Part shown: positions 6,519-51,286 of the stretch, piece by piece
Layout of the letters: every line of letters begins with the position of its first letter
How positions within the stretch are numbered: the stretch's first letter is position 1
NCBI GenBank assembly: GCA_029906195.1
Contig: JARWSJ010000004.1
Location: 434,001-498,000, forward strand
Length of the DNA stretch: 64,000 bases
Direction of reading: 5' to 3'
Source of the DNA: Chitinophagaceae bacterium 26-R-25
Lineage (GTDB): Bacteria; Bacteroidota; Bacteroidia; Chitinophagales; Chitinophagaceae
Position numbers and translations under genes: made by a program
Notes under the pieces: generated by a model
Told to the model about the DNA's origin: nothing
The model's input: the letters and a program-made list of their open reading frames with translations, nothing else
Database searches by the model: none

Positions 6519-9500
6519 ATGAAAGTTATCAAAAGCTTTTGGAAAGGGCTCTTATACGCCTCTCTTTCCCGGCCAATGAGAAAAGCTGCAATGCTTGGCC
6601 TGATTATTATCTCCTCACAAAGTTCAACTTTCGCACAAAACAAAATTAAAGTTACAGGAGCTGTTACAGACAGTACCGGACGGGGCATCGAGGGTGTTAC
6701 TGTATCTGAGAAAGGTACACGCACTAACGCTTTGACCACTGCCAACGGTTCCTACACAATCAATGTAGATAACGGAAGCTCAGTGCTTGTTTTCTCTTCG
6801 GTAGGCTTTACCTCCAAAGAAATAAGAGTAGGAGGCCAAACTAATATTACCGTATCGTTAGTACAAGTAAGTTCTAGTTTGCAGGATGTGGTGGTTGTAG
6901 GTTATGGTTCTCAAAAGAAAGCAAACCTTACAGGAGCCGTGTCTGTAGTGCGTCCTGAAGAAATTACAAAGAAACAGGCAACGACTGTAGCAGAAGCCTT
7001 ACAAGGTGAAGCTACTGGTGTAAACGTTAGAGGCGGCGGCCAGCCTGGTTCTGAAGCTGCAATCCAGATCCGCGGTCTTAAGAATCTTTCTTCTGCAAAT
7101 CCACTGTATGTTATTGATGGTTTGATCACTACTGCTAATCGTGATTTTAACCCGGATGATATTGAGAGCATACAAATATTAAAAGATGCATCTGCCGCCG
7201 CAATCTACGGATCTCGCGCTGGTAACGGGGTAATCATCATTACCACTAAAAAAGGTAAAGCTGGCCCTATGCGCATTGAAGCATCTGCAAGGATGAGTGT
7301 GCAAACTACTCCAAGATACAGCCTGATGCAAACGCCTCAGTTTGTTGCTTACAATGACTCTGCTTACGCAAATGCAGGCATTCCGCAGGCAAACTGGCAA
7401 AAACATAACTTAAATAGTAATACAGACTGGCAGAAAGAAGCTTTCCGTACCGGTAACATGCAAGACTACAACGTTAGTTTTTCGGGCGGGTCAAACAACG
7501 GAAGTTATTTGGTGTCTGCGAATTATTTTGGAAACAACGGAACTGTTATCAGCACAGGATTTAAAAGACTTGGCTTGCGTGTGAATACGCAAGGTTCAAA
7601 AGGTATTTTTAGTGTAGGCGAGAACCTCGCGATTACCAATGCGAAGTCAGATGAAATGAGTGGTAATCCATATGTTGATGTTGTGCGTATGTTGCCAACC
7701 ATTCCGGTGTATGATCCAACACATCCGGGAGGATACGGTTACGGTAATGAAGACAGCGCACGTACATTTGGTACTAACCCTGTTGCGCACTCAAATCTTG
7801 AAGATGCAAATAATGAAAACTTCCGTGTACGTGGAAACCTTTGGAGCGAGCTGAAATTTACGCCATGGTTGAAATACAGACTGAACCTGGGATACGAAAC
7901 AAGTAACGACCACTACAAATATTTCAGAAAGAAAGGAAGCTGGACGCTTAACCAACCAGATGATCCTGCGATCTTAAATGAAAACAGAGCTCGTTTTCAA
8001 TCTGCACTTATTGAGAATACATTGAATTTTAATAAAACATTTGGTCGCCATACAGTTGCTGCTGTAGTTGGTCAAACTTATCAGCATGACAACTATGATA
8101 TGATATGGGGACAGAAAAGAAACATTCTTTACAATCCAAGTACTGACACCTATTATCCAAATCTGGATAATGGAACCAATCCTACAACAGGGGGCTATGG
8201 CACTGAAGTTATATTGTTGTCCTACCTTGGACGCGTTGAATATAGCTATGACGACAGATATTTGCTGAACGTTGTCGCAAGAAGAGATGGTTCTTCAAGA
8301 TTGGGAGTAGGATACAGATGGGAAAACTTTCCTTCTGTTTCCGGTGCATGGCGCATCAGCAAAGAGAAGTTCTTCCAGTCTTCATGGATCAATGATCTTA
8401 AATTGCGTGCCAGCTACGGAACGCTTGGTGCAAGCAACATTGGTGCATACGAATACCTGGCAACGATCAACACAAACCCTACGATGGCAGTCGGCCGCGA
8501 TCAACACGTAGAAGTTGGTGCAACGCAAGTGCAGTTGGCCAACGCTGATCTGAAATGGGAAAAACTGAAACAGCAGAACTATGGTTTGGATGCGTCCTTC
8601 CTAAGCAATCGTTTGACAATTACTGCTGAATATTTCGACAGCAAAACACAAGATGTACTGACTCGTATGCCAATTCTCCTGACTACAGGTAATGACCAGG
8701 GAAATCCTCAGGTGAATGCAGTTAGTTTGAGAAACAAAGGATTTGAATTCTCTGCAACTTATCGCGATAATGCAGGCGACTTCAGATACTATGGTACTGT
8801 TAACATTACCAGACTTCGTAACAGCGTAGAAGAGCTTGGGTATAATAAAAATGAAATTTATGTGGGCAACACTGTAACAGCTATTGGTAGCCCTATAGGC
8901 ATGTGGTATGTGCTGCAAACAAAAGGATTGTTCCAAAATCAGGACGAGATCAACAACTACAAAAATAAAGATGGCAAAGTGATCCAGCCCGATGCGGCAC
9001 CTGGCGATATTCGTTTCGCGGATAATAACGGCGATGGCCAAATTACCAATGATGATAAAGCAGTGGTAGCAAGCCCTTGGCCGAAATGGGAAATGGGTTT
9101 GAACCTTGGTGGGTCATGGAAAAATTTCGATCTTTCGATGAATTGGTTCGGATCGTTCGGAGCAACTGTGTACAATGGATATCATAGTCTTGTTGACAGA
9201 TTTGATGACAACTCTAACTACAGAACAGACGTAAATCCGTGGACACCAACAAATACAAACACTTCGTTCCCAAGAATTATTTACAAAACTACTCTTAACT
9301 CAAGAGGCGATACAGACAGATGGCTGGAAGATGGAAGCTTCTTCCGTTTGAAGTATGTAAGTCTTGGTTACAATCTGCCTTCTTCAATGTTGAAAAAGAT
9401 CGGGTTCACAAGTGCACGTGTTACTTTGTCCGGTCAGAACCTAATAACATTTACAAAATATTCAGGGCTTGATCCGGAGTTTTTAAATACAGATATATTC

Positions 9501-17068: not shown

Positions 17069-17515
17069 ATGCTATCAAACAAAGCGCAATACGCCATCCA
17101 TGCATTAACGTATTTGGGTGAGCGATATCAGCAGGGGTATATACCGATCAATCAAATTGCGGAAGAAAGGAAGATTCCCTATAAGTTTCTCGAGGCTATT
17201 TTATTGGAATTGAGAAAAGCGGGCATTTTAGGAAGTCGCACCGGAAAGGGCGGGGGCTATTATCTAACCAAAGCGCCGGAAGAAATCATGCTTGTGCAGA
17301 TCATGCGCGCAATGGACGGCCCGGTGGCTTTGCTCCCTTGTGTGAGTAAAGTGTTTTATGAACCTTGTCGTATTTGCCCCTATCCGGAGCCGAAATGTCC
17401 TATCAGAGGAGCCTTTTTAGAAGTGCGGGATGTTACCTTAAAAGTACTGGGCGGGAAGTCATTACGCGATCTAATAAATAAAGATGTAAATTTTCCGTCT
17501 GATTTTTCAATTTGA
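17069..17515 (+). CDS. Rrf2 family transcriptional regulator with a four-cysteine cluster
   Basis: A 148-residue winged-helix protein of the Rrf2 family (relatives: CymR, IscR, NsrR). The HTH is in the first 65 residues (MLSNKAQYAIHALTYLG, with GSRTGKGGGYYL as the wing). Cys91, Cys100, Cys103 and Cys110 could bind an iron-sulfur cluster or act as a redox switch. It lies directly upstream of the sulfate-assimilation genes, on the same strand, and is the best candidate to bind the palindromes at 17548-17564 and 27058-27072. The ATG follows a possible -7 box TAATTTTA, so its mRNA leader would be very short. Confidence 0.9.
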   Translation: MLSNKAQYAIHALTYLGERYQQGYIPINQIAEERKIPYKFLEAILLELRKAGILGSRTGKGGGYYLTKAPEEIMLVQIMRAMDGPVALLPCVSKVFYEPCRICPYPEPKCPIRGAFLEVRDVTLKVLGGKSLRDLINKDVNFPSDFSI

Positions 17516-17547
17516 TAATCAAGGAAATAAAAAATTTGCTAATAATT

Positions 17548-17591
17548 CCTATTAAAATTATAGGAGATGTAGGGAATACTCCTTATTTTCG
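17548..17591 (+). promoter_or_regulatory. cysJ promoter with palindromic operator
   Basis: The palindrome CCTATTAAAATTATAGG (17548-17564) ends 19 bases before a -7-like box TATTTTCG (17584-17591). No TTTG -33 box is present; the palindrome sits where it would be. The layout and sequence match the promoter at 27058-27099. The predicted start of transcription is near 17598. Confidence 0.65.
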
Positions 17592-17606
17592 TATCACAAA
17601 TCGAAT

Positions 17607-17651
17607 ATGGTATTAAATATGTCACATATTATATGTTGTTGTTCACGGTAG
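17607..17651 (+). CDS. Leader peptide with three consecutive cysteine codons (MVLNMSHIICCCSR)
   Basis: A 14-codon ORF (ATG at 17607, TAG at 17649-17651) starts about 10 bases after the predicted transcription start. Codons 10-12 are all TGT. It lies between the sulfur promoter and a terminator placed just before cysJ, the position of an attenuator leader peptide. A stall at the Cys codons, when charged tRNA-Cys is low, would leave 17658-17663 free to form an antiterminator. I know of polycysteine leader ORFs acting this way in mycobacteria, but not in Bacteroidota. Confidence 0.7.
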   Translation: MVLNMSHIICCCSR

Positions 17652-17716
17652 CTTGCCGGGGGCCAAACATTATATGTATGTTTTTATATTGCCCTTCTCA
17701 CGAAGGGCTTTTTTTT
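17652..17716 (+). terminator. Cysteine attenuator: antiterminator segment and intrinsic terminator before cysJ
   Basis: The terminator is GCCCTTC (17691-17697), loop TCAC, GAAGGGC (17702-17708), then eight T (17709-17716); cysJ starts 12 bases later. The upstream segment GGGGGC (17658-17663) can pair with GCCCTT (17691-17696) using two G-T pairs, with AA/TT stacking beyond a bulged C. AAACAT (17665-17670) with ATGTTT (17678-17683) forms a hairpin within that loop. A ribosome reaching the leader stop codon at 17651 would cover the G-rich segment and favour termination. The pairing model is by eye, not folded by program. Confidence 0.65.
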
Positions 17717-17727
17717 AAAAATCAGCC

Positions 17728-19602
17728 ATGAGTAACGAACAGTTCACGATAACATCACCATTATTTACTGCTAACGAGAAGCAGCAGGTGCAGCAATTAT
17801 TAACGAGTTTTGAACCGCAGCAACTGCAATGGTTGGCCGGTTACTTAACCGGGCTGAACCAGGCAAACAAGCAATTACTTGACCTGCTAAACCAGTTTCC
17901 TAATGTGCAGGAAACGATCGCGCCGGCTGAGGTTGCAAACGTTTCGGCCACACCAGTGACCGTTTTGTTTGGTTCCAAATCCGGCAACAGCAAGAGTGTA
18001 GCGAAATCTTTACATGAAAAATTAGTGGCAAGAGGTTTATCTGTCTCTCTTCAGGATATGAACCAGTACAACGCCACCAAACTCAAAGACGAAAAATACC
18101 TGCTCGTTATCGTTAGTACCCACGGCGAAGGCGATCCTCCTCCCGCAGCTGAAGATCTGCATGCATTTATCCATAACCGTAAAGCGCCAAAGCTTGGTGG
18201 AGCAAAATATGCTGTGTTGGCACTGGGCGACCAAAGCTATGTTAACTACTGCCAGACCGGTAAAGACTTTGACAAACGTTTAGCAGAACTGGGTGGCGAT
18301 AGAATTGCCGACAGAGTGGATGCTGACGTGGACTTTGAAGAAGCGGCTGAACAATGGATCGAAAATGTTACCACCAAATTACTCGCACAACTTAATCATA
18401 CAAACGGTACTTCCGTTGCTGCAAAATCAACTGTAGCAACAGCTGTAGCACCCGCAGTGAAGAAAGTTGTTTACAATAGAAAAAATCCTTTTGCAGCCAC
18501 CGTCCTGGAAAAAGTACAATTGAACGGTCGCGGCTCGCAAAAGAAAACATACCATTTGGAGCTGTCCCTCGAAGGCAGCGGCCTGACATACTTGCCAGGC
18601 GACACCGTTGGTATTTTTTCAAAAAATAACTCCACACTCGTAAGTGAAGTGTTGGCACAAACCAAATGGGATGGCGCTTCTACACTCGTTTACAAAGATC
18701 ATCTACTTCCTCTCGAAGAAATTCTTACAAGTCATATAGAGTTGACAACAGTTTCAGGCGTTTTGCTGGAAAAGCTGTTGCACTATGCCGAGCAAAAGAA
18801 AAATGAAAAAGATGTGGCTGCGTTGAAAGCCATTCTCGATAATAAAAAAGAATTGGTTGCATTTCTTTACGGAAAAGATGTGCTCGACATCATTCTTGAC
18901 TATGCACACGGCATAACCGCAGAAGAGTTCATCAACCTTGCATTGCCATTACAGGCAAGATTGTATTCTATCGCCTCTTCCATCAAAGAACACGAAGAAG
19001 AAGTGCATTTAACCATAGGTCAGGTATTGTTTGAAACCGGTAGCAGGGCACGCAAAGGCGTTTGCTCTAACCACGTTGCGGAGTTGTTGAATGTTGGTGA
19101 TTCAGTAGATGTCTTCATCGAAAAAAATGAATCATTCCGTTTGCCGGAAAATGAAAATACACCTGTGATCATGGTTGGCCCGGGCACTGGTATCGCGCCT
19201 TTCAGAGCTTTTGTAGAAGAAAGAGCGGCAACAGGAGCAAAAGGAAAAAACTGGTTGTTCTTCGGCGATCGCAATTTCACCACAGACTTCCTTTACCAGC
19301 TGGAATGGCAACGTCACCTGAAAAGCGGCGCGCTTACGCAAATGAATACTGCGTTCTCCCGCGACACCGATAAAAAAGTTTACGTGCAACATCGCTTGCA
19401 ACAAAATGCCGTGGAAGTATATAAATGGTTGAAAGACGGCGCTCACTTCTACATTTGCGGTGACGCAAAACAAATGGCGAGAGATGTAAGAAACACATTG
19501 ATCGACATTGTAGAAAAACAAGCCGCCATCAGCCACGAAGAAGCCGTGCATTTTGTGAAAGAATTGATCAAGGCGGGGCGTTTACAAGAAGACGTTTATT
19601 AA
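17728..19602 (+). CDS. cysJ: Sulfite reductase flavoprotein (alpha) subunit
   Basis: A 624-residue diflavin reductase passing electrons from NADPH through FAD and FMN to the sulfite reductase hemoprotein. It has a helical N-terminus, a flavodoxin domain (about 85-230, FMN loop FGSKSGNSKSVA), a FAD-binding domain with RLYSIASS near 411, and a NADPH domain with GPGTGIAPFRAF near 481 and ICGDAKQMARDV, ending in the usual C-terminal aromatic (DVY). Length is close to typical CysJ. Expression is predicted to depend on the cysteine attenuator ending just before its start codon. Confidence 0.95.
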   Translation: MSNEQFTITSPLFTANEKQQVQQLLTSFEPQQLQWLAGYLTGLNQANKQLLDLLNQFPNVQETIAPAEVANVSATPVTVLFGSKSGNSKSVAKSLHEKLVARGLSVSLQDMNQYNATKLKDEKYLLVIVSTHGEGDPPPAAEDLHAFIHNRKAPKLGGAKYAVLALGDQSYVNYCQTGKDFDKRLAELGGDRIADRVDADVDFEEAAEQWIENVTTKLLAQLNHTNGTSVAAKSTVATAVAPAVKKVVYNRKNPFAATVLEKVQLNGRGSQKKTYHLELSLEGSGLTYLPGDTVGIFSKNNSTLVSEVLAQTKWDGASTLVYKDHLLPLEEILTSHIELTTVSGVLLEKLLHYAEQKKNEKDVAALKAILDNKKELVAFLYGKDVLDIILDYAHGITAEEFINLALPLQARLYSIASSIKEHEEEVHLTIGQVLFETGSRARKGVCSNHVAELLNVGDSVDVFIEKNESFRLPENENTPVIMVGPGTGIAPFRAFVEERAATGAKGKNWLFFGDRNFTTDFLYQLEWQRHLKSGALTQMNTAFSRDTDKKVYVQHRLQQNAVEVYKWLKDGAHFYICGDAKQMARDVRNTLIDIVEKQAAISHEEAVHFVKELIKAGRLQEDVY

Positions 19603-19769: not shown

Positions 19770-21479
19770 ATGAACGAAGATAAAAGCAAACTTTCCGAAG
19801 TAGAGCATATAAAAGAGAGAAGCCAATACCTGCGTGGTACATTGCCTGAGAGCCTGGATGACCAGGTGAGCGGTAACTTGTTTGCACAGGATCAGCAACT
19901 GATAAAATTTCACGGTTCGTATGTGCAAAGCGACCGCGAGCTCGACAAAGAGCGCAAGGCGCAAAAGCTGGAACCATTGTATTCGTTCATGATCCGTGTA
20001 CGTGTACCGGGTGGAGTGGCCACGCCAAAACAGTGGATCGATCTTGACAATATTGCTGATAAATACGGCATGCCTACACTGAAACTCACTACCAGGCAGG
20101 CTTTTGAGTTGCACAGCATTTTAAAGCACAACCTGAAAAATACGATCAAGGAGATCAACGAGTCTTTGTTGAGCACCATCGCAGCTTGCGGTGATGTGAA
20201 CAGAAACGTGATGAATACGGTGAATCCAAACACCAGCTACATTCACGATGATGTGCAGGATGTTGCAAGACAGATCAGCGATCACCTGAACCCAAGAACC
20301 TCTTCTTACTATAAGATATGGTTGAACGACGAAGTGGTTGCGGGTAATGGTTTAACAGAAGAAATAGAAGAGCCGATCTACGGAAAAGTTTATCTGCCAA
20401 GAAAATTCAAAATCACACTGGCAATTCCTCCCTACAACGACACAGACGTTTTTGCGCATGACCTTGGTTTGATCGCAATAGAAAAAGACAAAAAGCTACT
20501 CGGCTTCAATATCAGCGTTGGTGGCGGTATGGGAATGACTTTCGGGGACAATACCACGCATCCTCGTTTGGGTAACATAATTGGTTTTGCGCCAACCGAC
20601 AAGATCGTTGATGTGTGCGAAAAAATATTGACCATCCAGCGTGACTACGGCAATAGAGAAAATCGCCGTTTGTCAAGAATGAAATATACCGTTGAAAGAA
20701 TTGGTTTGGATTTTCTTGTGGTGGAATTGAACAAAAGACTGGGTTATGACATCGAACCGGCAAAACCGTTCAAATTCACTACTAACGGTGATAGCTATGG
20801 TTGGGTAAAAGGTGCCAATGGCAAATGGTTCATCACACTGTTTGTAGAAGGTGGCCGCGTAAAAGACACTGAGAAATATCCGCTTCGTACCGGACTTCGC
20901 GAGATCGCAAAAATCAGCGACGGTGATTTTCGACTCACTGGTAACCAAAACGTAGTACTTGGAAATATCAGCGATAAGAAGAAAGCGGAGATCGACAAGC
21001 TTTTAAAACAATACAATATTTTACCCGAGCAGGATAAAACGCCTCTTCGACTGCATTCTATGGCTTGCGTGGCGCTGAACGTGTGTCCGCTGGCAAATGC
21101 CGAAGGCGAAAGATACTTACCAGAACTGGTAGACAAAATAGAGGCTTTGCTCGGAAAACATAAACTCCAAAACGAACCGATCACCATTCGTATGACTGGT
21201 TGCCCTAACGGTTGCGGTCGTCCGTACCTTGGTGAAATCGGGTTTGTGGGAAGAGCTCCGGGAAAATACAACCTTTACCTCGGTGCGTCATTCGAAGGAG
21301 ATAGAATGAATGTTCTGTACAAGGAATCCTTAAGCGAAGAAGAGATCCTGAACACGCTCGATCCGCTGATCGGCCAATTTGCAGCAGAGAAAGGAAAAGA
21401 TGAGCATTTCGGAGATTTTCTCGTAAGAAAAAAAGTAATTGAACATAAAAATTTAACCGCAGATTTTCACGGAGAATAA
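19770..21479 (+). CDS. cysI: Sulfite reductase hemoprotein (beta) subunit
   Basis: A 569-residue siroheme and [4Fe-4S] enzyme reducing sulfite to sulfide with six electrons from CysJ. It has two ferredoxin-like half-domains (first with YSFMIRVRVPGGV, LTTRQAFELHSI) and siroheme-binding strands. The cluster and siroheme ligands are the cysteines in ACVALNVC (about 431 and 437) and CPNGC (about 477 and 481). Length is as expected. The siroheme it needs is made by the CobA-HemD and CysG-like proteins of the same cluster. Confidence 0.95.
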   Translation: MNEDKSKLSEVEHIKERSQYLRGTLPESLDDQVSGNLFAQDQQLIKFHGSYVQSDRELDKERKAQKLEPLYSFMIRVRVPGGVATPKQWIDLDNIADKYGMPTLKLTTRQAFELHSILKHNLKNTIKEINESLLSTIAACGDVNRNVMNTVNPNTSYIHDDVQDVARQISDHLNPRTSSYYKIWLNDEVVAGNGLTEEIEEPIYGKVYLPRKFKITLAIPPYNDTDVFAHDLGLIAIEKDKKLLGFNISVGGGMGMTFGDNTTHPRLGNIIGFAPTDKIVDVCEKILTIQRDYGNRENRRLSRMKYTVERIGLDFLVVELNKRLGYDIEPAKPFKFTTNGDSYGWVKGANGKWFITLFVEGGRVKDTEKYPLRTGLREIAKISDGDFRLTGNQNVVLGNISDKKKAEIDKLLKQYNILPEQDKTPLRLHSMACVALNVCPLANAEGERYLPELVDKIEALLGKHKLQNEPITIRMTGCPNGCGRPYLGEIGFVGRAPGKYNLYLGASFEGDRMNVLYKESLSEEEILNTLDPLIGQFAAEKGKDEHFGDFLVRKKVIEHKNLTADFHGE

Positions 21480-21485: not shown

Positions 21486-21592
21486 GATTTACCACTAAGG
21501 CACTAAGTACACTAAGCTTCACTAAGAGAAACATGAAATTAAAACAACCCTTAGTGAGACTCTGTGCCCTAAGTGTCTCAGTGGTAAAGATT
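21486..21592. repeat. Inverted repeat, 'CACTAAGGCACTAAG' family
   Basis: Left arm 21486-21527 (TTTACCACTAAGGCACTAAG) and right arm 21548-21592 (CTAAGTGTCTCAGTGGTAAA) fill the cysI-cobA gap. A close relative is at 52509-52607. Confidence 0.85.
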
Positions 21593-21642
21593 TGGACCTA
21601 CAAATAATAGAAAATTCTGAAGAAAAAAGGGACTTTTGTAAT

Positions 21643-23199
21643 ATGAATACGCCAAACAAAATACGATCTAAAGTGTACATCACAGGAGCCGGTCCTGGAG
21701 ATGAAGGCTTGCTGACGTTAAAGGCTAAAGAAGTATTGCAAAAAGCCGATGTTGTTTTGTACGATAACCTTGTAAACCGCCGCCTGCTTGATTTCTGCAA
21801 ACCGGAAGCAAACAAGATTTATGTGGGCAAACTGCCTTTTGCATGCGCAAACAGGCAAGACGCCATTCATGAAAAACTGCTGGAGTACGCTGTAGACGGC
21901 AACATCGTCGTTCGTCTCAAAGGCGGCGATCCATTTGTGTACGGAAGAGGCGCGGAAGAAGCGGATTACTTAATAAAACACGGAATTGATTTTGAAATAA
22001 TTCCCGGTGTCACGGCCGGTATTGCGGTTCCTGCTTATGCGGGTATACCGGTCACACATCGTGAAGCTTCGACAGGAGTGTTGTTTGTAACGGCCCATCA
22101 AAAGGAATCTGCCGAGAAACAATTTATCAACTGGCCATTGCTCGCTGCGTTCGACGGAACCATTGTGTTTTACATGGGCGTTAAAAATTTACCGCAGGTA
22201 GTACAAAACTTATCTGCTCATGGTAAATCGCTGGATACACCCATCGCCATCATTGAGCATGGAACCACACCATTGCAAAGAACAGTAACCGGTACACTTG
22301 ACAACATCGAAAGCCTTGCAGCGGAAAAACAAATCGGCATGCCTGCACTGATCGTTGTAGGTGAAGTAGTAAAATATCATAAACCATTGGAGTGGTTCGA
22401 AAGCAAGCCGCTCACACATAAACATATTTTGCTGACACATGCCAGCAACTCTTTGAAAAATTTGTATGCTGATCTTGTTGCAGAAGGCGCCATGGTAACC
22501 CATGTCCCTTTGATTGACATAAAAATTGCAGAAGAGAACGAAGCCTTGCAAAATGAAATTGCAAATCTGCAACAGTACAACTGGCTGGCGTTTACATCTG
22601 TTGCCGGTGTTCATGCATTTTTCAAACATTTGGCAAAAGCAGGGAAAGACGCACGCTACCTGCATAATTGCAAAGTGGCAACCGTAGGTAAAGAAACAAG
22701 AACCGTATTAAAGCACTACGGTATTGACAGCGATGTAACGCCAAATATCTTCACCGGACAGCAAATGGCGCTTTACCTGTTGCATCAATGTCCGCAGCCT
22801 TACGAATTGAGCTTGCTGCATCCAACAAGCAACAAGGCTTTGACCGGTTGGATAGAAGACTTGCGCCAACTGGGAGCAACTGTTACGCAGGTAACGGCTT
22901 ATGAAAATGCAGAACCTGATTTTGATGAAGGCGAACTGAAGCAATTGCAATCAAAATTCGATGCGATCACTTTCGCAAGTCCATCAGCAGTGGATGCAGT
23001 TGAAAAATTATTAACAGCAAACAAGCTTGATTTTGACAAAGCAAATGTGGTGTTCTCCATTGGCCCGAGCACAACAGCAGCTTTAAAGAAAGCTGGTTTT
23101 ACAAACATAACAGAATCGTTTGCGGCAAATGGCGATGCATTGGCAAAGACAATTGTAGCAAACAGTATAGAACAACATCTGTCCACCCTAAACAACTGA
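21643..23199 (+). CDS. Fused uroporphyrinogen-III C-methyltransferase and uroporphyrinogen-III synthase
   Basis: A 518-residue fusion supplying precorrin-2 for siroheme. Residues about 8-250 are the CobA/SUMT methyltransferase (KVYITGAGPGDEGLLTLKA, VVRLKGGDPFVYGRGAEEA, VTAGIAVPAYAGIPVTHR). Residues about 260-510 are HemD-like (TFASPSAVDAVEKLL, FSIGPSTTAALKKAG). A longer reading from TTG at 21592 would begin inside the inverted repeat, so the ATG at 21643 is preferred. The next gene starts nine bases after the stop, so the two are probably co-translated. Confidence 0.9.
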   Translation: MNTPNKIRSKVYITGAGPGDEGLLTLKAKEVLQKADVVLYDNLVNRRLLDFCKPEANKIYVGKLPFACANRQDAIHEKLLEYAVDGNIVVRLKGGDPFVYGRGAEEADYLIKHGIDFEIIPGVTAGIAVPAYAGIPVTHREASTGVLFVTAHQKESAEKQFINWPLLAAFDGTIVFYMGVKNLPQVVQNLSAHGKSLDTPIAIIEHGTTPLQRTVTGTLDNIESLAAEKQIGMPALIVVGEVVKYHKPLEWFESKPLTHKHILLTHASNSLKNLYADLVAEGAMVTHVPLIDIKIAEENEALQNEIANLQQYNWLAFTSVAGVHAFFKHLAKAGKDARYLHNCKVATVGKETRTVLKHYGIDSDVTPNIFTGQQMALYLLHQCPQPYELSLLHPTSNKALTGWIEDLRQLGATVTQVTAYENAEPDFDEGELKQLQSKFDAITFASPSAVDAVEKLLTANKLDFDKANVVFSIGPSTTAALKKAGFTNITESFAANGDALAKTIVANSIEQHLSTLNN

Positions 23200-23208: not shown

Positions 23209-24021
23209 ATGTCGAATCAATATCCGGGATATATACTCAGCAAAAGCATTCCTCAGAAAGAGGCAGTAGTAAAGTTCGCACAGGAAGTGATCAACTATCT
23301 TTTTCCGATAGTAGAAAATGAGCAGGCATTCTTAAACAGGCACCAGCGCAAACTGGAGGCTTTAAAAAACAGCTTGCTTGATATTCTTTATTCATTCGAT
23401 GAAAAGAGTCAATCCCTGGAGGCAAGTATTTGCAATCCATTCTTCTCATCCCTTAATGAAATAAAGGAAAAACTGGTGATTGATGCAAATGCATTGCTGG
23501 AATTCGATCCGGCTGCAAAAAGCATTGACGAAGTGATTATTACTTACCCCGGATTTTTGGCAGTAGCGGCTTACAGGATTGCAAACAAACTCTGCAGTTT
23601 GAAATTGCCGATAGTGCCACGCATCATTACAGAATGGGCGCACTCAGTAACGGGCATTGACATTCATCCAGGTGCAACTATTGGTGTGCCGTTTATTATC
23701 GATCATGGAACAGGTGTGGTAATCGGAGAAACAACGGTGATTGGAAAAAACGTGAAACTATACCAGGGCGTGACTTTGGGGGCTTTGGCAGTAAAAAAAG
23801 AAACAACAGGTCAGCGTCATCCAACAATTGAAGATGGTGTGATTATTTATGCCAATAGCACCATCCTTGGCGGTGATACTGTAATAGGCCGTGACTCAAT
23901 TGTAGGCGGTAACTGTTTTATCACCTACAGCATTCCGGCCCACAGCATCGCTTATCACCAACCAGTGGTAACGGTAAAAGACAAAAGAGACTATAACGAG
24001 CCGTTGAATTGGGTGATTTAG
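23209..24021 (+). CDS. cysE: Serine O-acetyltransferase
   Basis: A 270-residue enzyme making O-acetylserine from serine and acetyl-CoA, the carbon acceptor for sulfide. The N-terminal helical domain (1-140) is followed by left-handed beta-helix hexapeptide repeats (about 145-235) with IDIHPGATIG, IDHGTGVVIGET and YQGVTLGALAV. It matches the EpsC branch of the family. It is nine bases downstream of the CobA-HemD gene. Confidence 0.92.
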   Translation: MSNQYPGYILSKSIPQKEAVVKFAQEVINYLFPIVENEQAFLNRHQRKLEALKNSLLDILYSFDEKSQSLEASICNPFFSSLNEIKEKLVIDANALLEFDPAAKSIDEVIITYPGFLAVAAYRIANKLCSLKLPIVPRIITEWAHSVTGIDIHPGATIGVPFIIDHGTGVVIGETTVIGKNVKLYQGVTLGALAVKKETTGQRHPTIEDGVIIYANSTILGGDTVIGRDSIVGGNCFITYSIPAHSIAYHQPVVTVKDKRDYNEPLNWVI

Positions 24022-24169: not shown

Positions 24170-25081
24170 ATGATCGCTAACAACATTCTCGAAACAATTG
24201 GTAATACACCACACGTAAAGATCAACAGACTGTTTGGTGATAAACATAAAGTGTACGTAAAACTAGAGCGTGCCAATCCTGGCGCCAGCATTAAAGATCG
24301 TATTGCTTTGGCAATGATTGAAGATGCGGAGAAGAAAGGCCTGTTGCACAAAGACAGCGTTATCATTGAACCAACATCTGGTAACACCGGTATCGGCCTT
24401 GCAATGGTAGCAGCAGTAAAAGGTTACAAGATCATTTTAGTAATGCCGGAAAGTATGAGCATTGAACGCAGAAGATTGATGAGTTTATATGGTGCTTCTT
24501 TTGAACTGACTCCAAGAGAGAAAGGGATGAAAGGTGCCATTGAAAAAGCAAAGGAATTGGTTGAAGCGACACCACATGCATGGATGCCGCAACAATTCGA
24601 CAATCCTGCAAACACAGAAGTGCACCGTCAGACAACTGCGCAGGAAATTTTGAAAGATTTTCCAAATGGTGTTGATTACATCATCACAGGTGTTGGTACA
24701 GGTGGTCACATCACAGGGGTGGCAGAAGTGTTGAAAGCTAAATTCCCTAAAACAAAAGTATTTGCAGTGGAGCCGGAATTATCACCAGTATTAAGCGGCG
24801 GTAGCCCGGGACCTCACCCATTACAAGGTTTAGGCGCAGGTTTTATTCCTTCAATTTTGGATACAAAAATATTGGATGGTGTTATAGAAGTGGGTAAAGA
24901 AGAATCGTTTGACTACGCGCAACGTGCAGCAAAAGAAGAAGGTCTTTTCATCGGTATTTCAAGCGGTGCAGCATTGGCAGCAGTTGCGAAAAAATTGAAT
25001 GAAATTCCAGAAGGCAGCACAGTGTTGACATTCAACTATGATACAGGAGAGAGATACTTGTCGATCGAGGGTTTATTTTAG
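24170..25081 (+). CDS. cysK: Cysteine synthase (O-acetylserine sulfhydrylase)
   Basis: A 303-residue fold-type II PLP enzyme condensing O-acetylserine with sulfide to cysteine. The PLP lysine is in [11 protein letters not shown] (about residue 43), the substrate loop is [12 protein letters not shown] (about 66-77), and the phosphate-binding glycine loop is [21 protein letters not shown] near the C-terminus is typical. It follows cysE, so the two cysteine-forming steps are adjacent. Confidence 0.94.
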
Positions 25082-25089: not shown

Positions 25090-25177
25090 ATGTACGGAGT
25101 ACGATGTACGATGTACGAAAGCCATCAGTGTGTTAGATTAAAACGAATTTCGTACACCGTACATTGCACGGTACATC
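25090..25177. repeat. Inverted repeat, 'GTACGATGTACG' family
   Basis: Left arm 25090-25119 (ATGTACGGAGTACGATGTAC) and right arm 25148-25177 (TTTCGTACACCGTACATTGC) fill the cysK-cysH gap. The second copy is at 31902-31991. Confidence 0.85.
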
Positions 25178-25190
25178 AAACAGAAAAACT

Positions 25191-25925
25191 ATGAGTGAAA
25201 ATATTTCAAAGACTTTGCAGGATATCATCGATGCTCTCGAGCCGTTAACGGCTGAAGGGCGCTTGCAAAAGATCGTTTCTTTATATAATGAAGGCGTTGT
25301 TTTCTCAACATCTTTAGGGCAGGAAGATCAGGCGATCACTTACATGATTGCGAAACAAAAACTGCCAATAGAAATATTCACGCTGGATACAGGAAGGCTT
25401 TTCCAGGAAACATATGAGCTGATTGATAAAACGATCGCCCGTTACAAAGTGTCTGTTAAAGTGTATTTCCCGAATGCGGCACGTGTAGAGGAAATGGTGA
25501 ATGCAAAAGGTCCGAATAGTTTCTATGAGTCCGTTGAAAACCGCAAGGAATGTTGCTTCATCAGGAAAGTAGAACCACTGAACAGAGCATTGCAAGGGGC
25601 AAAAATCTGGATCACCGGTTTGCGTGCAGATCAATCTGCAAATAGAAATGAGGTGAAGGTGGCAGAGTACGATGAAGCAAGAAACCTGATTAAAATCAAC
25701 CCACTGATTGACTGGACTTTTGAACAGTTATTACAATATCTTGCGGCTAATAATATTCCTTACAATCCACTGCACGACAAAGGATTTTTGAGCATCGGAT
25801 GTCAGCCCTGTACAAGAGCAATCGAGCCAGGAGAGGACATCAGAGCCGGAAGATGGTGGTGGGAAACCTCTCAAAAAGAGTGTGGATTGCATGGGGTGAA
25901 TGTAGCGGAAAAACAGCAATCGTGA
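25191..25925 (+). CDS. cysH: Adenylyl-sulfate (APS) reductase, CysH family
   Basis: A 244-residue enzyme reducing activated sulfate to sulfite with thioredoxin-type electrons. It has a PP-loop-like start (FSTSLGQEDQAIT), the CC pair in NRKECCFIRK, CxxC in GCQPCTRAI, and the catalytic C-terminal Cys in KECGLH. The CC plus CxxC set binds [4Fe-4S] and marks enzymes using APS rather than PAPS. That agrees with the absence of an APS kinase gene here. The ATG at 25191 is preferred over an upstream in-frame codon inside the inverted repeat. Confidence 0.93.
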   Translation: MSENISKTLQDIIDALEPLTAEGRLQKIVSLYNEGVVFSTSLGQEDQAITYMIAKQKLPIEIFTLDTGRLFQETYELIDKTIARYKVSVKVYFPNAARVEEMVNAKGPNSFYESVENRKECCFIRKVEPLNRALQGAKIWITGLRADQSANRNEVKVAEYDEARNLIKINPLIDWTFEQLLQYLAANNIPYNPLHDKGFLSIGCQPCTRAIEPGEDIRAGRWWWETSQKECGLHGVNVAEKQQS

Positions 25926-26021: not shown

Positions 26022-26930
26022 ATGTCAAGTAAAAGTATTCCGTCTTTTCCACGCAGCCTTGAAGATGAAAGCATCTATATACTAAGGGAAGTGGCTGCGC
26101 AGTTTGAACGTCCTGCGTTGTTGTTTAGTGGAGGTAAAGACTCAATTACACTCGTTAGATTGGCACAAAAAGCTTTTTGGCCTGGAAAAATTCCTTTTCC
26201 TTTGGTGCATGTTGATACCGGTCACAACTTCCCTGAGACAATCGCTTTTCGTGACTGGCTGGTGAAAGAAACAGGTGCTGAGCTGATCGTGCGTTATGTA
26301 CAGGACAGCATTGATGCAGGAAAAGTAAAAGAAGAGACAGGTAAATATGCGAGCCGTAATGCTTTGCAAACCGTTACCTTGTTAGATACCATCGAAGAAT
26401 TCAAATTCGACGCTTGTATAGGTGGAGCGAGAAGAGATGAAGAAAAGGCTCGTGCTAAAGAAAGAATCTTTTCTGTGAGAAATGATTTTGGTCAGTGGGA
26501 TCCTAAAAAGCAACGACCAGAATTATTCGGTTTGCTGAACGGAAAGATCAACCGCGGAGAAAACGTACGTGTGTTCCCGATCAGTAACTGGACAGAGCTT
26601 GATGTGTGGACCTACATAAAAGAAGAGAATCTTCAAATACCATCCATCTATTATTCGCATGAACGAAGCGTGATCACAAGAGATGGTATGTTGTGGCCAA
26701 AATCTGAATTTTTGAATACCACAGAACAGGAAGTTCCGTTCAACCATACAGTTCGCTTCCGCACGGTAGGGGATATGACTTGTACAGCTGCAGTAGCATC
26801 TACAGCAGATAACATCGACGATATCATCACCGAAATTCTCGCAGCAAAAATCTCTGAACGCGGCGCCCGCATGGACGATCAGCGCAGTGAAGCAGCGATG
26901 GAGCAGAGGAAGAAAGACGGATATTTTTAA
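26022..26930 (+). CDS. cysD: Sulfate adenylyltransferase subunit 2
   Basis: A 302-residue ATP pyrophosphatase-fold subunit forming APS from ATP and sulfate, in complex with the GTPase CysN encoded at 32024. The PP-loop SGGKDSITLVRLA is near residue 37, followed by HVDTGHNFPETIAFRDWL, GGARRDEEKARAKERIFS and the C-terminal MEQRKKDGYF typical of CysD. cysD and cysN are split by the TonB receptor and fusion permease genes, which is unusual because they are commonly adjacent. Confidence 0.95.
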   Translation: MSSKSIPSFPRSLEDESIYILREVAAQFERPALLFSGGKDSITLVRLAQKAFWPGKIPFPLVHVDTGHNFPETIAFRDWLVKETGAELIVRYVQDSIDAGKVKEETGKYASRNALQTVTLLDTIEEFKFDACIGGARRDEEKARAKERIFSVRNDFGQWDPKKQRPELFGLLNGKINRGENVRVFPISNWTELDVWTYIKEENLQIPSIYYSHERSVITRDGMLWPKSEFLNTTEQEVPFNHTVRFRTVGDMTCTAAVASTADNIDDIITEILAAKISERGARMDDQRSEAAMEQRKKDGYF

Positions 26931-27295: not shown

Positions 27296-30274
27296 ATGAA
27301 AAAGTTATTTACCAATAACATTAAAATTGTTATAATCATTTTAGTCTCTACATTAATATTCACCAATGCGAAGGCCCAGTTGAATGGCGCCATTGAGGTA
27401 TCGGGCAAAGTAACCGATGACCGTCAATTGGCATTGGATGGTATTTCTATACAGATTAAAGGAACCAACACTGGAACAGTAAGCGATAGCCTGGGTAACT
27501 TCAAATTGGTTACAGCGAAACAACCGCCATTTGTTTTAGTGCTCACAGGCGTTGGCTTTGCACCTAAAGAAGTAAACGTAAAATCATTAAGCGATAAAAT
27601 CAGGGTACAGCTTTTCACACAAACCTTTTATGCAAATGAAGTCGTAGTAACGGCGAGCCGCCAATCTGAAAAGATCATGCGTTCTCCGGTGGCTATTGAA
27701 AAGCTTGATATCCGCGCATTAAAAGAAACGCCTGCTCCGTCTTTCTACGATGCATTGGGCAATGTAAAAGGTGTGCAGCTTACCACTTCCTCTCTCACAT
27801 TTAAAGTGCCTAACACAAGAGGTTTCAACATTCCAAACAACTTCCGCTTCATGCAGTTGGTAGATGGTGTGGACATGCAAGCCGCTACATTGGGTGTGCC
27901 TTTGGGAAATGCGATCGGGCCAACAGAGCTGGATATTCAGACAGTGGAAATCACTCCCGGCGCCGCTTCTGCGTTGTATGGCATGAATGCGATCAACGGG
28001 ATGGCTAACCTTATTACAAAGAGTCCTTTCCAGTACCAGGGTTTGAGCATTTACCAAAGAACAGGTGTTAACCATGTGGATGGTATTGATCATTCTCCCT
28101 CGTTAATGACAGAATCTGCTTTGCGTTATGCAAAGGCTTTCAACAATAAATTCGCATTCAAGGTAAACGTAGATTATTTGCGTGGTACCGACTGGCGCTC
28201 TGACAATCACAGCGACCAGAATCCAAATAACTTAAAATCTGCAAATCCTCAGTTCCCTGAATTGAACAACGCAAATGCAGCATTTGATGGTTGGAACAAG
28301 TATGGTGATGATGCATTGGCGGGCAGTAACACGGTTTCCATCACCGGTTTAAATATCAACGGACAAGCAAACCAGGCGCTGACAGTGGCTCGTACAGGCT
28401 ATTGGGAAAAAGATCTGGTAAGCCCTAAAGTTGACAACCTGAAATTAGACGGATCTATTTACTATCGCTTCACACCGAAAACAGAAATTTCTTATAGCTA
28501 CCGTTTCGGTAAAATGGACGGTGTGTTCCAGCGTGGTAACAAAGTGCAGCTTGATAATGTGCGTGTGCAAAATCACAAGTTGGAGTTAAAAGGACAAGAC
28601 TTTTTGGTGCGTACATATGTTTCTCTTGAAAACACAGGCGATTCTTACAACGTAAAACCACTTGCAGATAACCTTGATCTGTACAGCGGTGGAAGCGCAA
28701 GCGCATGGGGCGCAAAATATAAAACGGCTTTACAACAATATGCTACCAATCATGGTGGAGCGCTTAATTCAAGCAATCTTGCGGATGCAACCATCTTCGC
28801 ACGTCAGGCGGCTGATGCAGGCCGCGTAGAGCCGGGCACAAAAGAATTCAATGATCTGGTGAATACCATTCGCCACATCAATAACTGGGATATTAAATCA
28901 TCTACCATTCCTGATGCGCCTGTAACAGGCGGTGCAGCTTTGATTCAGAAAAGCCGCATGTATCACGCAGAAGGCCAGTGGGATCTTTCACGTCACGTAA
29001 AATATTTCAACCTGTTGATTGGCGCAGATGCACGTGTCTATGAAATCATTCCAGACGGTAACAACTTTGTAGATTTCAGCAGACCAATCGATCAACGTAA
29101 CAAACCTGTGATGGTGGATGGCAAAGTGCCTGATTCCAGTGATTTTGGTGCCAATGTGTATTATAAAAAATTCGGTGGATTTGCACAGGTAACTAAAACA
29201 TTCTTCGACGAGAAACTTAAATTGTTCGGTTCGTTAAGATATGATTACAATCCTGAGTTTACAGGAAAATTTACACCGCGTATTGCTGCAGTGTATACAG
29301 CTAACAAGATTCACAATTTCCGTTTTACTTATCAGCAAGGGTATCGTTTCCCGGCATTGTTTGAAGCACTTTCTTACGTAAACAATGGTCGCGTGAAACG
29401 TGTGGGTAGTCTTCCTTACATCAATGAAGGATTGGGTTACCTTGATAACAGCTATACACAAACATCTGTTGTCAACTTTAACGCAGCAGTAAAAGCTCAA
29501 GGCAATACCGATGCAGCAGCATTGGCAAACAGGAACTTGCTCGTAGTGGCAAATCTTCCAAATGCTACACCTGAAAAGATCAACTCATTTGAAGTTGGTT
29601 ACAAAACAGTATTGTTTGAGAATAAAGTGATCGTTGATATCGACGCGTATTCGAATGTTTACACAGGTTTCCTTGGTCAGGTGCAGGTATTTGTACCTAA
29701 AGGAGAAACAGTGGGTTCTGATGCCGCAGTAATCGCAATGCTCGACCGCAACCGCGATGCAACAGTGGCAAGTGGCGGCAACGCTGCAAGCAAGGGGCAG
29801 GATCGCTACCGTGTGTATACCAACGCAAAAAATAAATATCACAGTTACGGATCAGCTTTGGCGGTTACTTATAATTTTTATAAGAAATTTACAATCTCTG
29901 GTAACGTAAGCTATAACGATATTAAAACCAATGCTACGAACGACGTTTTTGTAACAGGTTTCAACACGCCAAAATGGACAACGAACGTATCATTTGGTAA
30001 CCGTGAAGTAATAGAGAATGTTGGCTTTAATGTTGTGTGGAAATGGCAGGACTCGTTCCTTTGGGAAAGTCCTTTGGTAACTGGTAATGTAAGTGCATTC
30101 AATACAATTGATGCGCAGGTAACATACAGTTTGCCAAAATTGAGAAGCACAGTTAAAGTGGGAGCAGCGGATCTTTTTAACAATAGATATTATCAATATG
30201 CAGGCGGTCCGACAATTGGTGGATTGTATTACGCAACGATCATAGTTGACGGCCTGTTCCAGGGGGACAAATAA
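27296..30274 (+). CDS. TonB-dependent outer-membrane receptor in the sulfur cluster
   Basis: A 992-residue receptor with signal peptide ending near TNAKA, a carboxypeptidase-regulatory-like domain (about 30-112), a TonB-box/plug region (NEVVVTASRQSEKIMRSPVAIEKL, then YDALGNVKGVQL and GAASALYGMNAINGMANL) and a 22-strand barrel ending in an atypical GLFQGDK. It lacks a SusD partner. Placement between cysD and cysN, with a cysteine-rich leader peptide and shared operators, suggests uptake of a sulfur-containing compound. The substrate itself is not shown by the sequence. Confidence 0.9.
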   Translation: MKKLFTNNIKIVIIILVSTLIFTNAKAQLNGAIEVSGKVTDDRQLALDGISIQIKGTNTGTVSDSLGNFKLVTAKQPPFVLVLTGVGFAPKEVNVKSLSDKIRVQLFTQTFYANEVVVTASRQSEKIMRSPVAIEKLDIRALKETPAPSFYDALGNVKGVQLTTSSLTFKVPNTRGFNIPNNFRFMQLVDGVDMQAATLGVPLGNAIGPTELDIQTVEITPGAASALYGMNAINGMANLITKSPFQYQGLSIYQRTGVNHVDGIDHSPSLMTESALRYAKAFNNKFAFKVNVDYLRGTDWRSDNHSDQNPNNLKSANPQFPELNNANAAFDGWNKYGDDALAGSNTVSITGLNINGQANQALTVARTGYWEKDLVSPKVDNLKLDGSIYYRFTPKTEISYSYRFGKMDGVFQRGNKVQLDNVRVQNHKLELKGQDFLVRTYVSLENTGDSYNVKPLADNLDLYSGGSASAWGAKYKTALQQYATNHGGALNSSNLADATIFARQAADAGRVEPGTKEFNDLVNTIRHINNWDIKSSTIPDAPVTGGAALIQKSRMYHAEGQWDLSRHVKYFNLLIGADARVYEIIPDGNNFVDFSRPIDQRNKPVMVDGKVPDSSDFGANVYYKKFGGFAQVTKTFFDEKLKLFGSLRYDYNPEFTGKFTPRIAAVYTANKIHNFRFTYQQGYRFPALFEALSYVNNGRVKRVGSLPYINEGLGYLDNSYTQTSVVNFNAAVKAQGNTDAAALANRNLLVVANLPNATPEKINSFEVGYKTVLFENKVIVDIDAYSNVYTGFLGQVQVFVPKGETVGSDAAVIAMLDRNRDATVASGGNAASKGQDRYRVYTNAKNKYHSYGSALAVTYNFYKKFTISGNVSYNDIKTNATNDVFVTGFNTPKWTTNVSFGNREVIENVGFNVVWKWQDSFLWESPLVTGNVSAFNTIDAQVTYSLPKLRSTVKVGAADLFNNRYYQYAGGPTIGGLYYATIIVDGLFQGDK

Positions 30275-30347
30275 AATTAAAAGTAAAAAGTCAAACGAGT
30301 TGCTGAAATGAACAAGAACGTGAGTGGCATTTTACCAAAAGATAGAC

Positions 30348-31889
30348 ATGGCAAAAACAGAAGAAACATTAAACGTACAGAATAATTTATATCCTGTTTT
30401 TCTGAAACTGGAGAACCTTCACCTACTAATAGTGGGTGGAGGTTTTGTCGGTACAGAGAAAATGACTTCTGTAATGAATTGCTCTCCGGATGCAAGAGTT
30501 ACAGTCGTGGCAAAGGAGATTAGCGCGGAAATAAGAAACATGGTGATTGGCAATGATAACGTTGTGTTGCTGGAAAAACCTTTTGAGGCATCTGATCTTG
30601 ATGGCAAAGACCTTGTATTTGCTGCAACAGCAGACAGATCTTTAAATGCAGAAGTGAAAGCTGAAGCAGCCGAAAGAGGCATACTTGCCAATGTTGCGGA
30701 TACGCCTGATCTATGCGATTTTTATTTGAGCAGCATTGTAAACAAGGGTCATCTAAAAATTGCAGTTAGCACCAATGGTAAATCACCTACCGTTGCAAAA
30801 AGATTGAAAGAAGTATTCAATGAAATGCTTCCTGACGAATTAGAGGAGGTACTGGACAACATGCAGCAGATAAGACAAAGCCTTAACGGTGATTTTCATA
30901 ACAAGGTGCAGCAGCTGAATAACATCACAAAAGTATTGGTGGATAATCAAACACCGGTTGAAACACCGCTTACTGTCGATCAGCCACCAATGGTAAGCGA
31001 TAAGAAATGGAAGCGAATTGTGACCTGGTGCATTTTTGCTTTTGTATTTATGATCATCGGGCATGCGGTTCTGTCTTATATACCATTTAAAGAAATAGCT
31101 GGCTTTGGTAAATCCGCTCTTGGAAATATTGATCACGGCTGGTTTTTACTCATGTTGCTAACGGGCTTTCTGGCTCAATTTGTAGACGGGGCGTTGGGCA
31201 TGGGTTATGGTGTTATTTCAACAAGCATTCTCCTTTCTGTGGGCGTAAATCCGGCTATTGTGAGCAGCCGCGTGCACTCCGCACGTGTGTTCTCAAGCGC
31301 AGTGTCGGGATACAGCCACCGTAAGTTTGGCAACGTAAACAAAAAGCTGTTCAAGGCATTGGTAGTGCCGGGATGTATAGGAGCGATTGGAGGAGCGTTA
31401 CTGGCTGTGTATGCAAAGGAATCGGCACATATTGTAAGACCAATACTTTCGGTATACACTTTGTATTTAGGGATACGTATCATAACAAAGGCATTTGCGA
31501 AAAGGAGAAAAGAAGGTAAAATTAAAAATGCCGGATGGCTCGCTTCTGCAGGTGGTTTCATGGATGCCTTTGCGGGCGGCGGCTGGGGTTCTTTGGTAAC
31601 AAGTACTTTATTGTCAAAAGCAAAAAATCCACGGTACATCGTTGGATCAGTTTGCTTGACAGAATTTTTTGTGGTGCTGTCAAGTACGCTTACTTTTTTC
31701 ATTTTATTGAAAAGTTTGCCGTTGACGGATATCGCCGGTCTTATCATCGGTGGTTTGATCGCAGCACCAATAGCAGCGAGATTAGTTGGTAAAATACCAA
31801 TGAAATATATGCTCTTCGCAGTAGGTGGTTTGGTAAGTTTATCAAGCCTGAGAATATTGTGGATGGCAGCCTTGGAATTTTTAAAATAA
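30348..31889 (+). CDS. Fused precorrin-2 dehydrogenase (CysG N-terminal/Met8-like) and TauE/SafE (TSUP) permease
   Basis: A 513-residue fusion. Residues about 1-200 resemble the siroheme synthase N-terminal module: NAD-binding LLIVGGGFVGTEKM, FAATADRSLNAEVKAEA, NVADTPDLCDFYLSSIV and AVSTNGKSPTVAKRLKE. Residues about 230-513 are a TSUP transporter with about eight membrane segments (LLTGFLAQFVDGALGMGYGV, GGFMDAFAGGGWGSLVTSTLL). One protein thus joins the oxidation of precorrin-2 with movement of a sulfur oxyanion across the inner membrane. The ATG at 30348 is chosen over a GTG at 30324. Confidence 0.88.
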   Translation: MAKTEETLNVQNNLYPVFLKLENLHLLIVGGGFVGTEKMTSVMNCSPDARVTVVAKEISAEIRNMVIGNDNVVLLEKPFEASDLDGKDLVFAATADRSLNAEVKAEAAERGILANVADTPDLCDFYLSSIVNKGHLKIAVSTNGKSPTVAKRLKEVFNEMLPDELEEVLDNMQQIRQSLNGDFHNKVQQLNNITKVLVDNQTPVETPLTVDQPPMVSDKKWKRIVTWCIFAFVFMIIGHAVLSYIPFKEIAGFGKSALGNIDHGWFLLMLLTGFLAQFVDGALGMGYGVISTSILLSVGVNPAIVSSRVHSARVFSSAVSGYSHRKFGNVNKKLFKALVVPGCIGAIGGALLAVYAKESAHIVRPILSVYTLYLGIRIITKAFAKRRKEGKIKNAGWLASAGGFMDAFAGGGWGSLVTSTLLSKAKNPRYIVGSVCLTEFFVVLSSTLTFFILLKSLPLTDIAGLIIGGLIAAPIAARLVGKIPMKYMLFAVGGLVSLSSLRILWMAALEFLK

Positions 31890-51265: not shown

Positions 51266-51286
51266 TGATCTATTAAAGAACTGGCG

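Follow-up and report, generated by a model that had tools for sequence, protein, structure and literature searches.

A cysteine-codon leader and putative transcription attenuator before cysJ of Pinibacter, and cysteine-rich leaders before sulfur operons of the Bacteroidota

We consider it very likely that the cysJ operon of Pinibacter is regulated by ribosome-mediated attenuation of transcription, with charged tRNA-Cys as the signal. In the window, by which we mean the whole 64,000-nucleotide stretch of DNA that was analysed, a short leader ORF with three consecutive cysteine codons lies between an Rrf2-family regulator gene and cysJ, and is followed by a G-rich segment and an intrinsic terminator. 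The attenuator reading is favoured because the changes among all three Pinibacter genomes compared spare the CCCSR-stop end of the leader peptide, because RNA with a ribosome stalled on the cysteine codons is computed to pair with the G-run (-8.8 to -15.1 kcal/mol) and RNA with a ribosome at the stop codon is not (-2.2 to -4.5 kcal/mol), because the genes behind the leader make cysteine, because leaders with cysteine runs recur far above chance before cysH, and also before metY, and because four Flavobacterium genomes have such leaders together with a terminator and a complementary segment. Against it, the cysteine leaders of CysH relatives precede another gene and are without a terminator, and the neighbouring genus lacks the leader. 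Judged by its CysJ, which is 97% identical to those of the nearest named records, Pinibacter aurantiacus and P. soli, the window is from the genome of a Pinibacter (Chitinophagaceae), a soil bacterium.

The leader, its operon and its promoter region

The first-pass annotation had described the leader ORF, its three TGT codons and stop, the G-run, the terminator and the cysJ start, and these elements match the sequence base for base. The features of the locus are as follows.

17069-17515, + strand: Rrf2-family regulator gene, directly 5' of the leader (Pfam PF02082, E 3.2e-32)
17547-17565, no strand: palindrome TCCTAT-TAAAATT-ATAGGA, candidate Rrf2 operator (sequence)
17584-17591, + strand: TATTTTCG, possible -7 promoter element (sequence)
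17607-17651, + strand: leader ORF MVLNMSHIICCCSR, 14 codons from ATG at 17607 to stop codon TAG at 17649-17651
17634-17642, + strand: three consecutive TGT (Cys) codons, codons 10-12 (sequence)
17646-17658, + strand: small hairpin across the leader stop codon, a 5' alternative pairing (folds)
17658-17663, + strand: predicted antiterminator segment GGGGGC, pairing with 17691-17696 (folds, pairing energy)
17691-17716, + strand: intrinsic terminator, 7-bp stem, 4-nt loop, 8 T (sequence, terminator scan)
17728-19602, + strand: cysJ, sulfite reductase flavoprotein (NCBIfam TIGR01931 above cut-off; Pfam)
19770-21479, + strand: cysI, sulfite reductase hemoprotein (Pfam NIR_SIR, NIR_SIR_ferr)
21592-23199, + strand: tetrapyrrole methylase-HemD fusion, siroheme (Pfam TP_methylase, HEM4)
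23209-24021, + strand: serine acetyltransferase-like gene, epsC/cysE (Pfam Hexapep above cut-off; NCBIfam EpsC and cysE best but below cut-offs)
24170-25081, + strand: cysteine synthase-like gene, cysK/M (Pfam PALP)
25164-25925, + strand: cysH, (P)APS reductase, start codon tentative (NCBIfam NF002537 above cut-off; Pfam PAPS_reduct)
26022-26930, + strand: cysD, sulfate adenylyltransferase subunit 2 (NCBIfam NF003587 and TIGR02039 above cut-offs)

The cysteine codons of the leader ORF agree with what is made by the operon that follows (cysJ, cysI, siroheme, cysH, cysD and others). Seven small ORFs with dense cysteine runs lie outside same-strand ORFs of at least 100 codons in the 64-kb window, three on the + and four on the - strand, and among these only MVLNMSHIICCCSR has terminator-like elements and a gene behind it. 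No Rfam element above gathering score was found at 17584-17727, the only match in the window being a SAM riboswitch at 51145-51267 (-). This riboswitch lies 5' of a gene (49740-50933) that resembles those of cystathionine synthases/lyases and scores below the NCBIfam cut-offs, with a homoserine dehydrogenase gene (47898-49154) further along, and no poly-Cys leader was seen near the riboswitch. The order of genes at cysD is common to the window and the neighbouring genus, g9. By eye, a gene like those of TonB-dependent receptors (27296-30274) lies between cysD and a gene of the cys region in which a siroheme-synthase-like N-terminal part is fused to a TauE/SafE permease (30324-31889); a gene resembling the receptor is also found near cysD in some relatives.

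The palindrome at 17547-17565, which shows small changes in both Pinibacter relatives and has a similar counterpart 5' of cysJ in g9, may be the operator for the Rrf2 regulator. Downstream of it, TATTTTCG is likened to the Bacteroidota -7 element, whose consensus we take to be TAnnTTTG, and TATCTTTG stands at the corresponding place in two g9 loci (L010 and L011). If TATTTTCG is a -7 element, transcription would start at about 17597-17600, 7-10 bases 5' of the leader ATG. A scan of 17400-17900 for sigma-70-type promoters gave no match, with a model that says little about a Bacteroidota promoter.

Terminator, competing pairing and conservation

The terminator stem (GCCCTTC-TCAC-GAAGGGC, 17691-17708, five G-C pairs) is followed by eight T to 17716. 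The whole terminator starts some 175 bases beyond the Rrf2 stop and leaves 11 bases between its end and the cysJ ATG at 17728. It was the sole site found in a terminator scan of 17400-17900 (shuffles gave a mean of 0.4, sd 0.6), and the fold of 17598-17727 has an energy of -32.5 kcal/mol (z -2.72), which 3 of 200 shuffles equalled. The proposed pairing of the G-rich 17658-17663 with the terminator 5' arm has a computed energy of -9.4 kcal/mol. Of 3195 background windows 75 did as well, as did 121 of 1000 dinucleotide-shuffled and 9 of 1000 mononucleotide-shuffled sequences; taken alone in the window, this pairing is only moderately beyond chance. Two Pinibacter relatives (L004 and L005) have a G-run of six and a pairing of -11.1 kcal/mol, which 14 and 17 of 1000 dinucleotide-shuffled sequences equalled.

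RNA up to the terminator 5' arm was also folded with a ribosome masking each of the three cysteine codons or the stop codon, the ribosome front edge being placed by what we take to be the usual toeprint distance. With the ribosome on the cysteine codons the antiterminator folds in the window (-8.8 to -11.4 kcal/mol), in L004 (-12.5 to -15.1) and in L005 (-10.8 to -13.4 kcal/mol). When the ribosome is placed on the stop codon instead, the terminator 5' arm is unpaired in the window (-2.2 kcal/mol), and three weaker pairs to this arm persist in L004 (-4.5) and L005 (-2.9). Comparing folds with and without a ribosome, as the first-pass annotation had suggested, therefore gives competing structures with trp-type logic in three species: an antiterminator that, as computed, depends on ribosome position and excludes the terminator, its strength against chance being moderate in the window. 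The complete leader RNA folds with the terminator in every ribosome state, and antitermination would therefore need co-transcriptional timing, as in all such attenuators.

The transcription start, translation, stalling and cysteine response that we infer for the leader from its sequence would be connected as follows. Transcription would begin just 5' of the leader ORF, at a promoter that is probably also under the neighbouring Rrf2 regulator. When Cys-tRNA is ample, the ribosome would reach the UAG and cover the G-run to about 17661, so that the antiterminator is blocked, the hairpin at 17691-17708 forms and RNA polymerase halts before cysJ. When Cys-tRNA is scarce, the ribosome would stall on the UGU codons with its front edge at about 17646-17652, GGGGGC would pair with GCCCUU, no terminator would form, and cysJ and the genes behind it would be transcribed. 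The attenuation of the trp/his type that had been proposed for this locus is supported in that the parts visible in the sequence are present and rightly placed and the masked folds compete in three species.

The leader and the terminator are kept in all three Pinibacter genomes compared (the window, L004 and L005). The middle of the peptide differs among them (II, NI and IK), CCCSR-stop is fixed, and one Asn codon changes silently. In L005, which has a longer terminator loop and a T-run interrupted by one A, one change in a terminator arm, from U-A to U-G, keeps the pair. This was the only pair-keeping change in the stems of these three close species; the compensatory changes in terminator and antiterminator that had been sought did not appear. 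Outside the genus the picture is different. At all five g9 loci with the same Rrf2-cysJ order there was no ORF with two Cys in four codons within 300 bases 5' of cysJ, and no terminator above the scan threshold before cysJ. The expectation that the cysJ leader would be conserved across Chitinophagaceae thus held within Pinibacter (3/3) and failed in the neighbouring genus (0/5 loci), and the lack of a conserved ORF or Cys codons in relatives, which had been named as evidence against an attenuator, occurs in g9 (5/5) and not in Pinibacter (0/3). Since leader and terminator are both absent in g9, the hairpin is unlikely to be merely the terminator of the Rrf2 gene; on this comparison of sequences the two came, or went, together, and we read the absence in g9 as a gain in Pinibacter. 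One g9 locus (L011) has an ORF with a single Cys, MRYTSLRYVGCI, before cysJ, and visual inspection suggests a weak hairpin with four T there, below the terminator threshold; these may be remnants or a coincidental resemblance.

As a phylum-wide search key CCCSR-stop was dropped. It matched in 68 of 395 genomes, with two matches in the Pinibacter genome itself, and no leader before a cys gene was recognised among the 30 loci fetched, which were read by eye with the pattern narrowed to true stop codons and the genes behind not identified individually. The second match in the same genome (L039) has a 15-codon open stretch 5' of the motif.

Cysteine-rich leaders before cysH and metY

CysH matches were found in 177 of 294 family genomes, and in a family set of 146 loci from 145 genomes the cysH start was placed in 138 loci (137 genomes), the other eight having no cysH match in the stretch fetched. 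Taking as a leader a small ORF with at least three Cys in four codons within 200 bases 5' of cysH, we found such a micro-ORF at 47 of the 138 loci (46 genomes, 26 of 60 genera), related loci being treated as independent in these counts and in the p-values. The antisense strand gave 0/138, 20 rounds of dinucleotide shuffling gave a mean of 1.45 loci (maximum 4), and the regions 5' of 425 other ORFs gave three positives, an upper figure because these control ORFs were mechanical ORFs of at least 150 codons that may include metY genes. Other residues scored in the same test on the sense strand (Leu 43/138, Val 17), because many upstream stretches are coding, and on the antisense strand (Leu 29, Gln 26, Thr 26). 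The positive at L156 seems to lie inside upstream coding sequence, and at least one of the 47 is therefore likely due to chance.

Examples of these peptides are MMEKMKKYMCCCCCCR, MNATNTQCCCCCC and MKNLAHIKYICCCCC. In genera g71, g85, g3 and g61 the Cys-rich end of the leader is largely kept, with TGT/TGC swaps between L145 and L231, and the leaders of g15, g59 and g5 share little beyond cysteine density. The leader stop lies 27-117 bases 5' of cysH. No strong intrinsic terminator was found before cysH at any of the 47 leader-bearing loci, and C outnumbers G in the spacer of 45 of them, compared with 26 of 48 control regions. A spacer so rich in C and poor in G, as at Rho sites, suggests Rho or, just as well, translational control as the output. 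A scan for Cys ORFs around the 30 nearest CysH homologues gave nothing convincing, because these are mostly Rrf2-type relatives; the signal emerged once more distant genera were added. A hairpin that would join the start of the leader to that of cysH over a long range, noticed by eye, was rejected as a common mechanism (mean fold z -0.27 over the 47 loci, one below -2).

In a midpoint-rooted tree of 61 CysH proteins a branch with support 98 separates 27 rows, which include all 15 leader-bearing ones, from 34 mostly Rrf2-linked rows. CysH of the window is in the latter set and groups there with g9 (support 99). The Pinibacter leader was probably gained independently, because its CysH falls outside the leader-bearing group, the gene behind the leader is a different one (cysJ) and the output is different, with a terminator present. 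With g9 left out, a cysH leader is found in none of 21 loci with an Rrf2 gene and in 15 of 35 without (Fisher p 0.0003). We claim no functional trade-off between Rrf2 and cysH leader, since the exclusion follows the tree and independent pairs give a median p of 1.

An Rfam search covered 19 of 20 leader-negative, Rrf2-negative loci or their kin, two of the 20 loci given being leader-positive, and found one tRNA and seven SAM riboswitches. One riboswitch (L154, leader-negative, 7837-7952 on the - strand) stands directly before cysH, which starts at 7763 (-); the others belong to other genes or are unplaced. By eye, a palindrome of the type CTACnnnnTTnGTAG was seen before the poly-Cys leaders of cysH at L140, L141, L145, L152 and L153, and also 5' of metY at L140, L141 and L152, often just 3' of a TATCTTTG-like box. 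It may be an operator common to the cysH and metY operons.

Poly-Cys ORFs also precede metY, the gene at L151 scoring above the NCBIfam cut-off for O-acetylhomoserine aminocarboxypropyltransferase. A pattern of two Cys codons and a hairpin GCC-GNAA-GGC matched in 33 of 294 family genomes, the reversed control in none; the hairpin loop is GUAA or GCAA in all 33, and metY stands behind the pattern in 28 of the 30 loci read (L265-L294). The metY leaders of many Chitinophagaceae were seen usually to end in CCMP-stop or CCMPQG.., with a GCC-GYAA-GGC hairpin over that end, and poly-Cys leaders of metY (O-acetylhomoserine sulfhydrylase) were also noted at L136, L140, L141, L146, L151 and L152. Rfam scans of loci of this kind listed only SAM riboswitches. 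Of the 28 metY-leader loci 20 were scanned, and 14 of these (among L265-L289) have a SAM riboswitch upstream on the same strand. At L300 and L316, too, a SAM riboswitch precedes a poly-Cys or Met/Cys leader. Such an arrangement in series, in front of metY or cysH, is a candidate two-input methionine/cysteine switch.

In a survey of the class, CysH was found in 59 of 295 genomes, 55 of them outside Chitinophagaceae, and 54 of these were read, with G805 left out (its cysH is at a contig start) and the stretch of L305 being only 211 bases. In family f58, leaders with six or seven Cys at their end precede cysH in five of six genomes (L241, L242, L245, L246 and L248). The single genome of family f56 (L316) has the leader MFTTIGTANTICCCCCCC before cysH, with six or seven Cys at its end and a SAM riboswitch upstream, and the single genome of family f9 has a Met/Cys-rich leader with a GTG start, again with a SAM riboswitch upstream. 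Among five Flavobacterium loci, one has a tandem pair of Met/Cys leaders before cysH, each with its own intrinsic terminator behind it, and three further genomes with tandem leaders were found by DNA similarity among 150 of the genus; BLASTN matches other than G347, G1018, G935 and G933 were short, the longest among the matches listed being under 80 bases, and were not used. The feature list for these four genomes has one entry:

L311, L325-L328: tandem Met/Cys leaders, four Flavobacterium genomes

A segment complementary to the terminator 5' arm was computed in seven of the eight Flavobacterium leaders, and the eighth missed the motif. At L318 (f99) another ORF stands before a Cys-run ORF, which was left out of the counts, and the remaining class-level loci read had no such leader within the stretch fetched.

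Alternative readings and relation to known attenuators

That the terminator sits between the Rrf2 gene and cysJ, with regulator and palindrome present here and present alone in the neighbouring genus, would also be expected if the hairpin were the ordinary terminator of the Rrf2 gene, the Cys run were due to chance and cysJ were under the Rrf2 regulator alone. We regard this as very improbable, given that the terminator is so far past the Rrf2 stop and so near cysJ, that no terminator was found at any of the five loci of the neighbouring genus, and that the leader ORF is kept in all three genomes and Cys runs before cysH widely exceed chance. A leader acting at the level of translation, with a stalled ribosome altering how accessible the cysJ start is and the terminator in a minor role, is likewise very improbable. 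The hairpin is close enough to the cysJ ATG that it could also hinder initiation, and poly-Cys leaders of mycobacteria are described, in the account given in PMC9031893, as attenuating translation of the genes behind them; a 7-bp stem with five G-C pairs and eight T is nonetheless a standard intrinsic terminator, and the competing segment fits the terminator in three species.

The chance that the element senses redox state, a metal that the CCC peptide binds or a metabolite that binds to the RNA is smaller again, and we give it almost no weight. Regulators of the Rrf2 family often sense Fe-S or thiol state, and the peptide has three adjacent cysteines. Set against this are the lack of any Rfam element at the leader, the persistence of cysteine density across genera and families while the peptides differ, and the TGT/TGC swaps at Cys positions between L145 and L231, the last two being what codon sensing predicts.

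As a ribosome-mediated attenuator, the Pinibacter leader has well-known counterparts. The trp operon of E. coli has a short leader ORF with a run of codons for the end product, a terminator, a competing antiterminator and the first gene just behind. The Pinibacter leader is like such trp/his-type attenuators of Proteobacteria in its clustered codons for the amino acid of the operon, its intrinsic terminator between leader and first gene, its antiterminator and its adjoining gene, and its 14 residues with regulatory codons at 10-12 resemble trpL. It differs in sensing, on the reading given here, cysteine, in belonging to Bacteroidota, in its linked Rrf2 regulator, and in having only a small hairpin over the stop codon rather than a strong 1:2 stem.

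Poly-Cys leaders have been predicted in Actinobacteria, where the passages devoted to them describe no conserved terminator hairpins and suggest Rho (PMC1262725, 2005), and were tested in mycobacteria by Canestrari et al. 2020, as related in parts of PMC9031893, PMC9094748 and PMC13236596. In the Pinibacter leader, as in those described there, a micro-ORF ahead of cys genes carries a run of Cys codons close to its stop, a likeness of layout. A leaderless start, with the RNA beginning at the ATG, is a further mark of the actinobacterial kind; the predicted start of the Pinibacter RNA would be 7-10 bases before its ATG. In contrast to them it is in another phylum and has a clear intrinsic terminator (17691-17716) and antiterminator. 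Leader-peptide systems had previously been shown only in Proteobacteria and Actinobacteria, according to the relevant part of PMC2965389, which added Firmicutes. Within the Bacteroidota, leader-peptide attenuation before amino-acid operons is described for Flavobacterium psychrophilum (PMC9723704), a general likeness in the same phylum; its attenuation section names no cysteine operon, and its main text mentions cysteine once, in another matter. In the Bacteroides thetaiotaomicron map, leader-like small ORFs are mentioned in general in the portion concerned (PMC7366714). We found no report of a cysteine leader in Bacteroidota in the literature searched, most subscription journals lying outside it, in agreement with the first-pass annotation, which knew of no such attenuator there; many more such leaders were found in the phylum here. 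The putative cysteine-codon attenuation with an intrinsic terminator is, as far as the literature searched shows, new in Bacteroidota, and the cysteine-codon leader as a kind was already known.

The cysH leaders of Chitinophagaceae share amino acid, pathway and family with the Pinibacter cysJ leader, but precede cysH, have no strong terminator (0/47) and have a C-rich spacer. The tandem leaders of Flavobacterium are like the Pinibacter leader in their Cys codons, intrinsic terminators and segments complementary to the 5' arms, but have two attenuators in series, mixed Met/Cys codons and the competing segment inside the ORF.

It seems reasonably likely that Bacteroidota run a wide regulon of Cys or Met-Cys leader peptides before cysH, cysJ and metY, and that this sensing arose more than once. 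The output would be an intrinsic terminator for Pinibacter cysJ and for the tandem leaders of Flavobacterium cysH, and Rho or translation for cysH of many Chitinophagaceae. The metY operon would use the CCMP peptide, its end covered by the GCC-GYAA-GGC hairpin; where, as often, a SAM riboswitch stands in front, methionine and cysteine would be sensed in series. Pinibacter would have put its leader under a pre-existing Rrf2-linked promoter. The finding points to small genes that lack any Rfam family. The same operon with and without a leader offers natural comparison pairs, and a SAM riboswitch followed by a poly-Cys leader offers a candidate for a switch with two inputs. If true, a terminator-coupled cysteine leader in Bacteroidota, and the recurrence of such leaders before three sulfur operons in several families, would mean that sensing by codon runs evolves easily and repeatedly.
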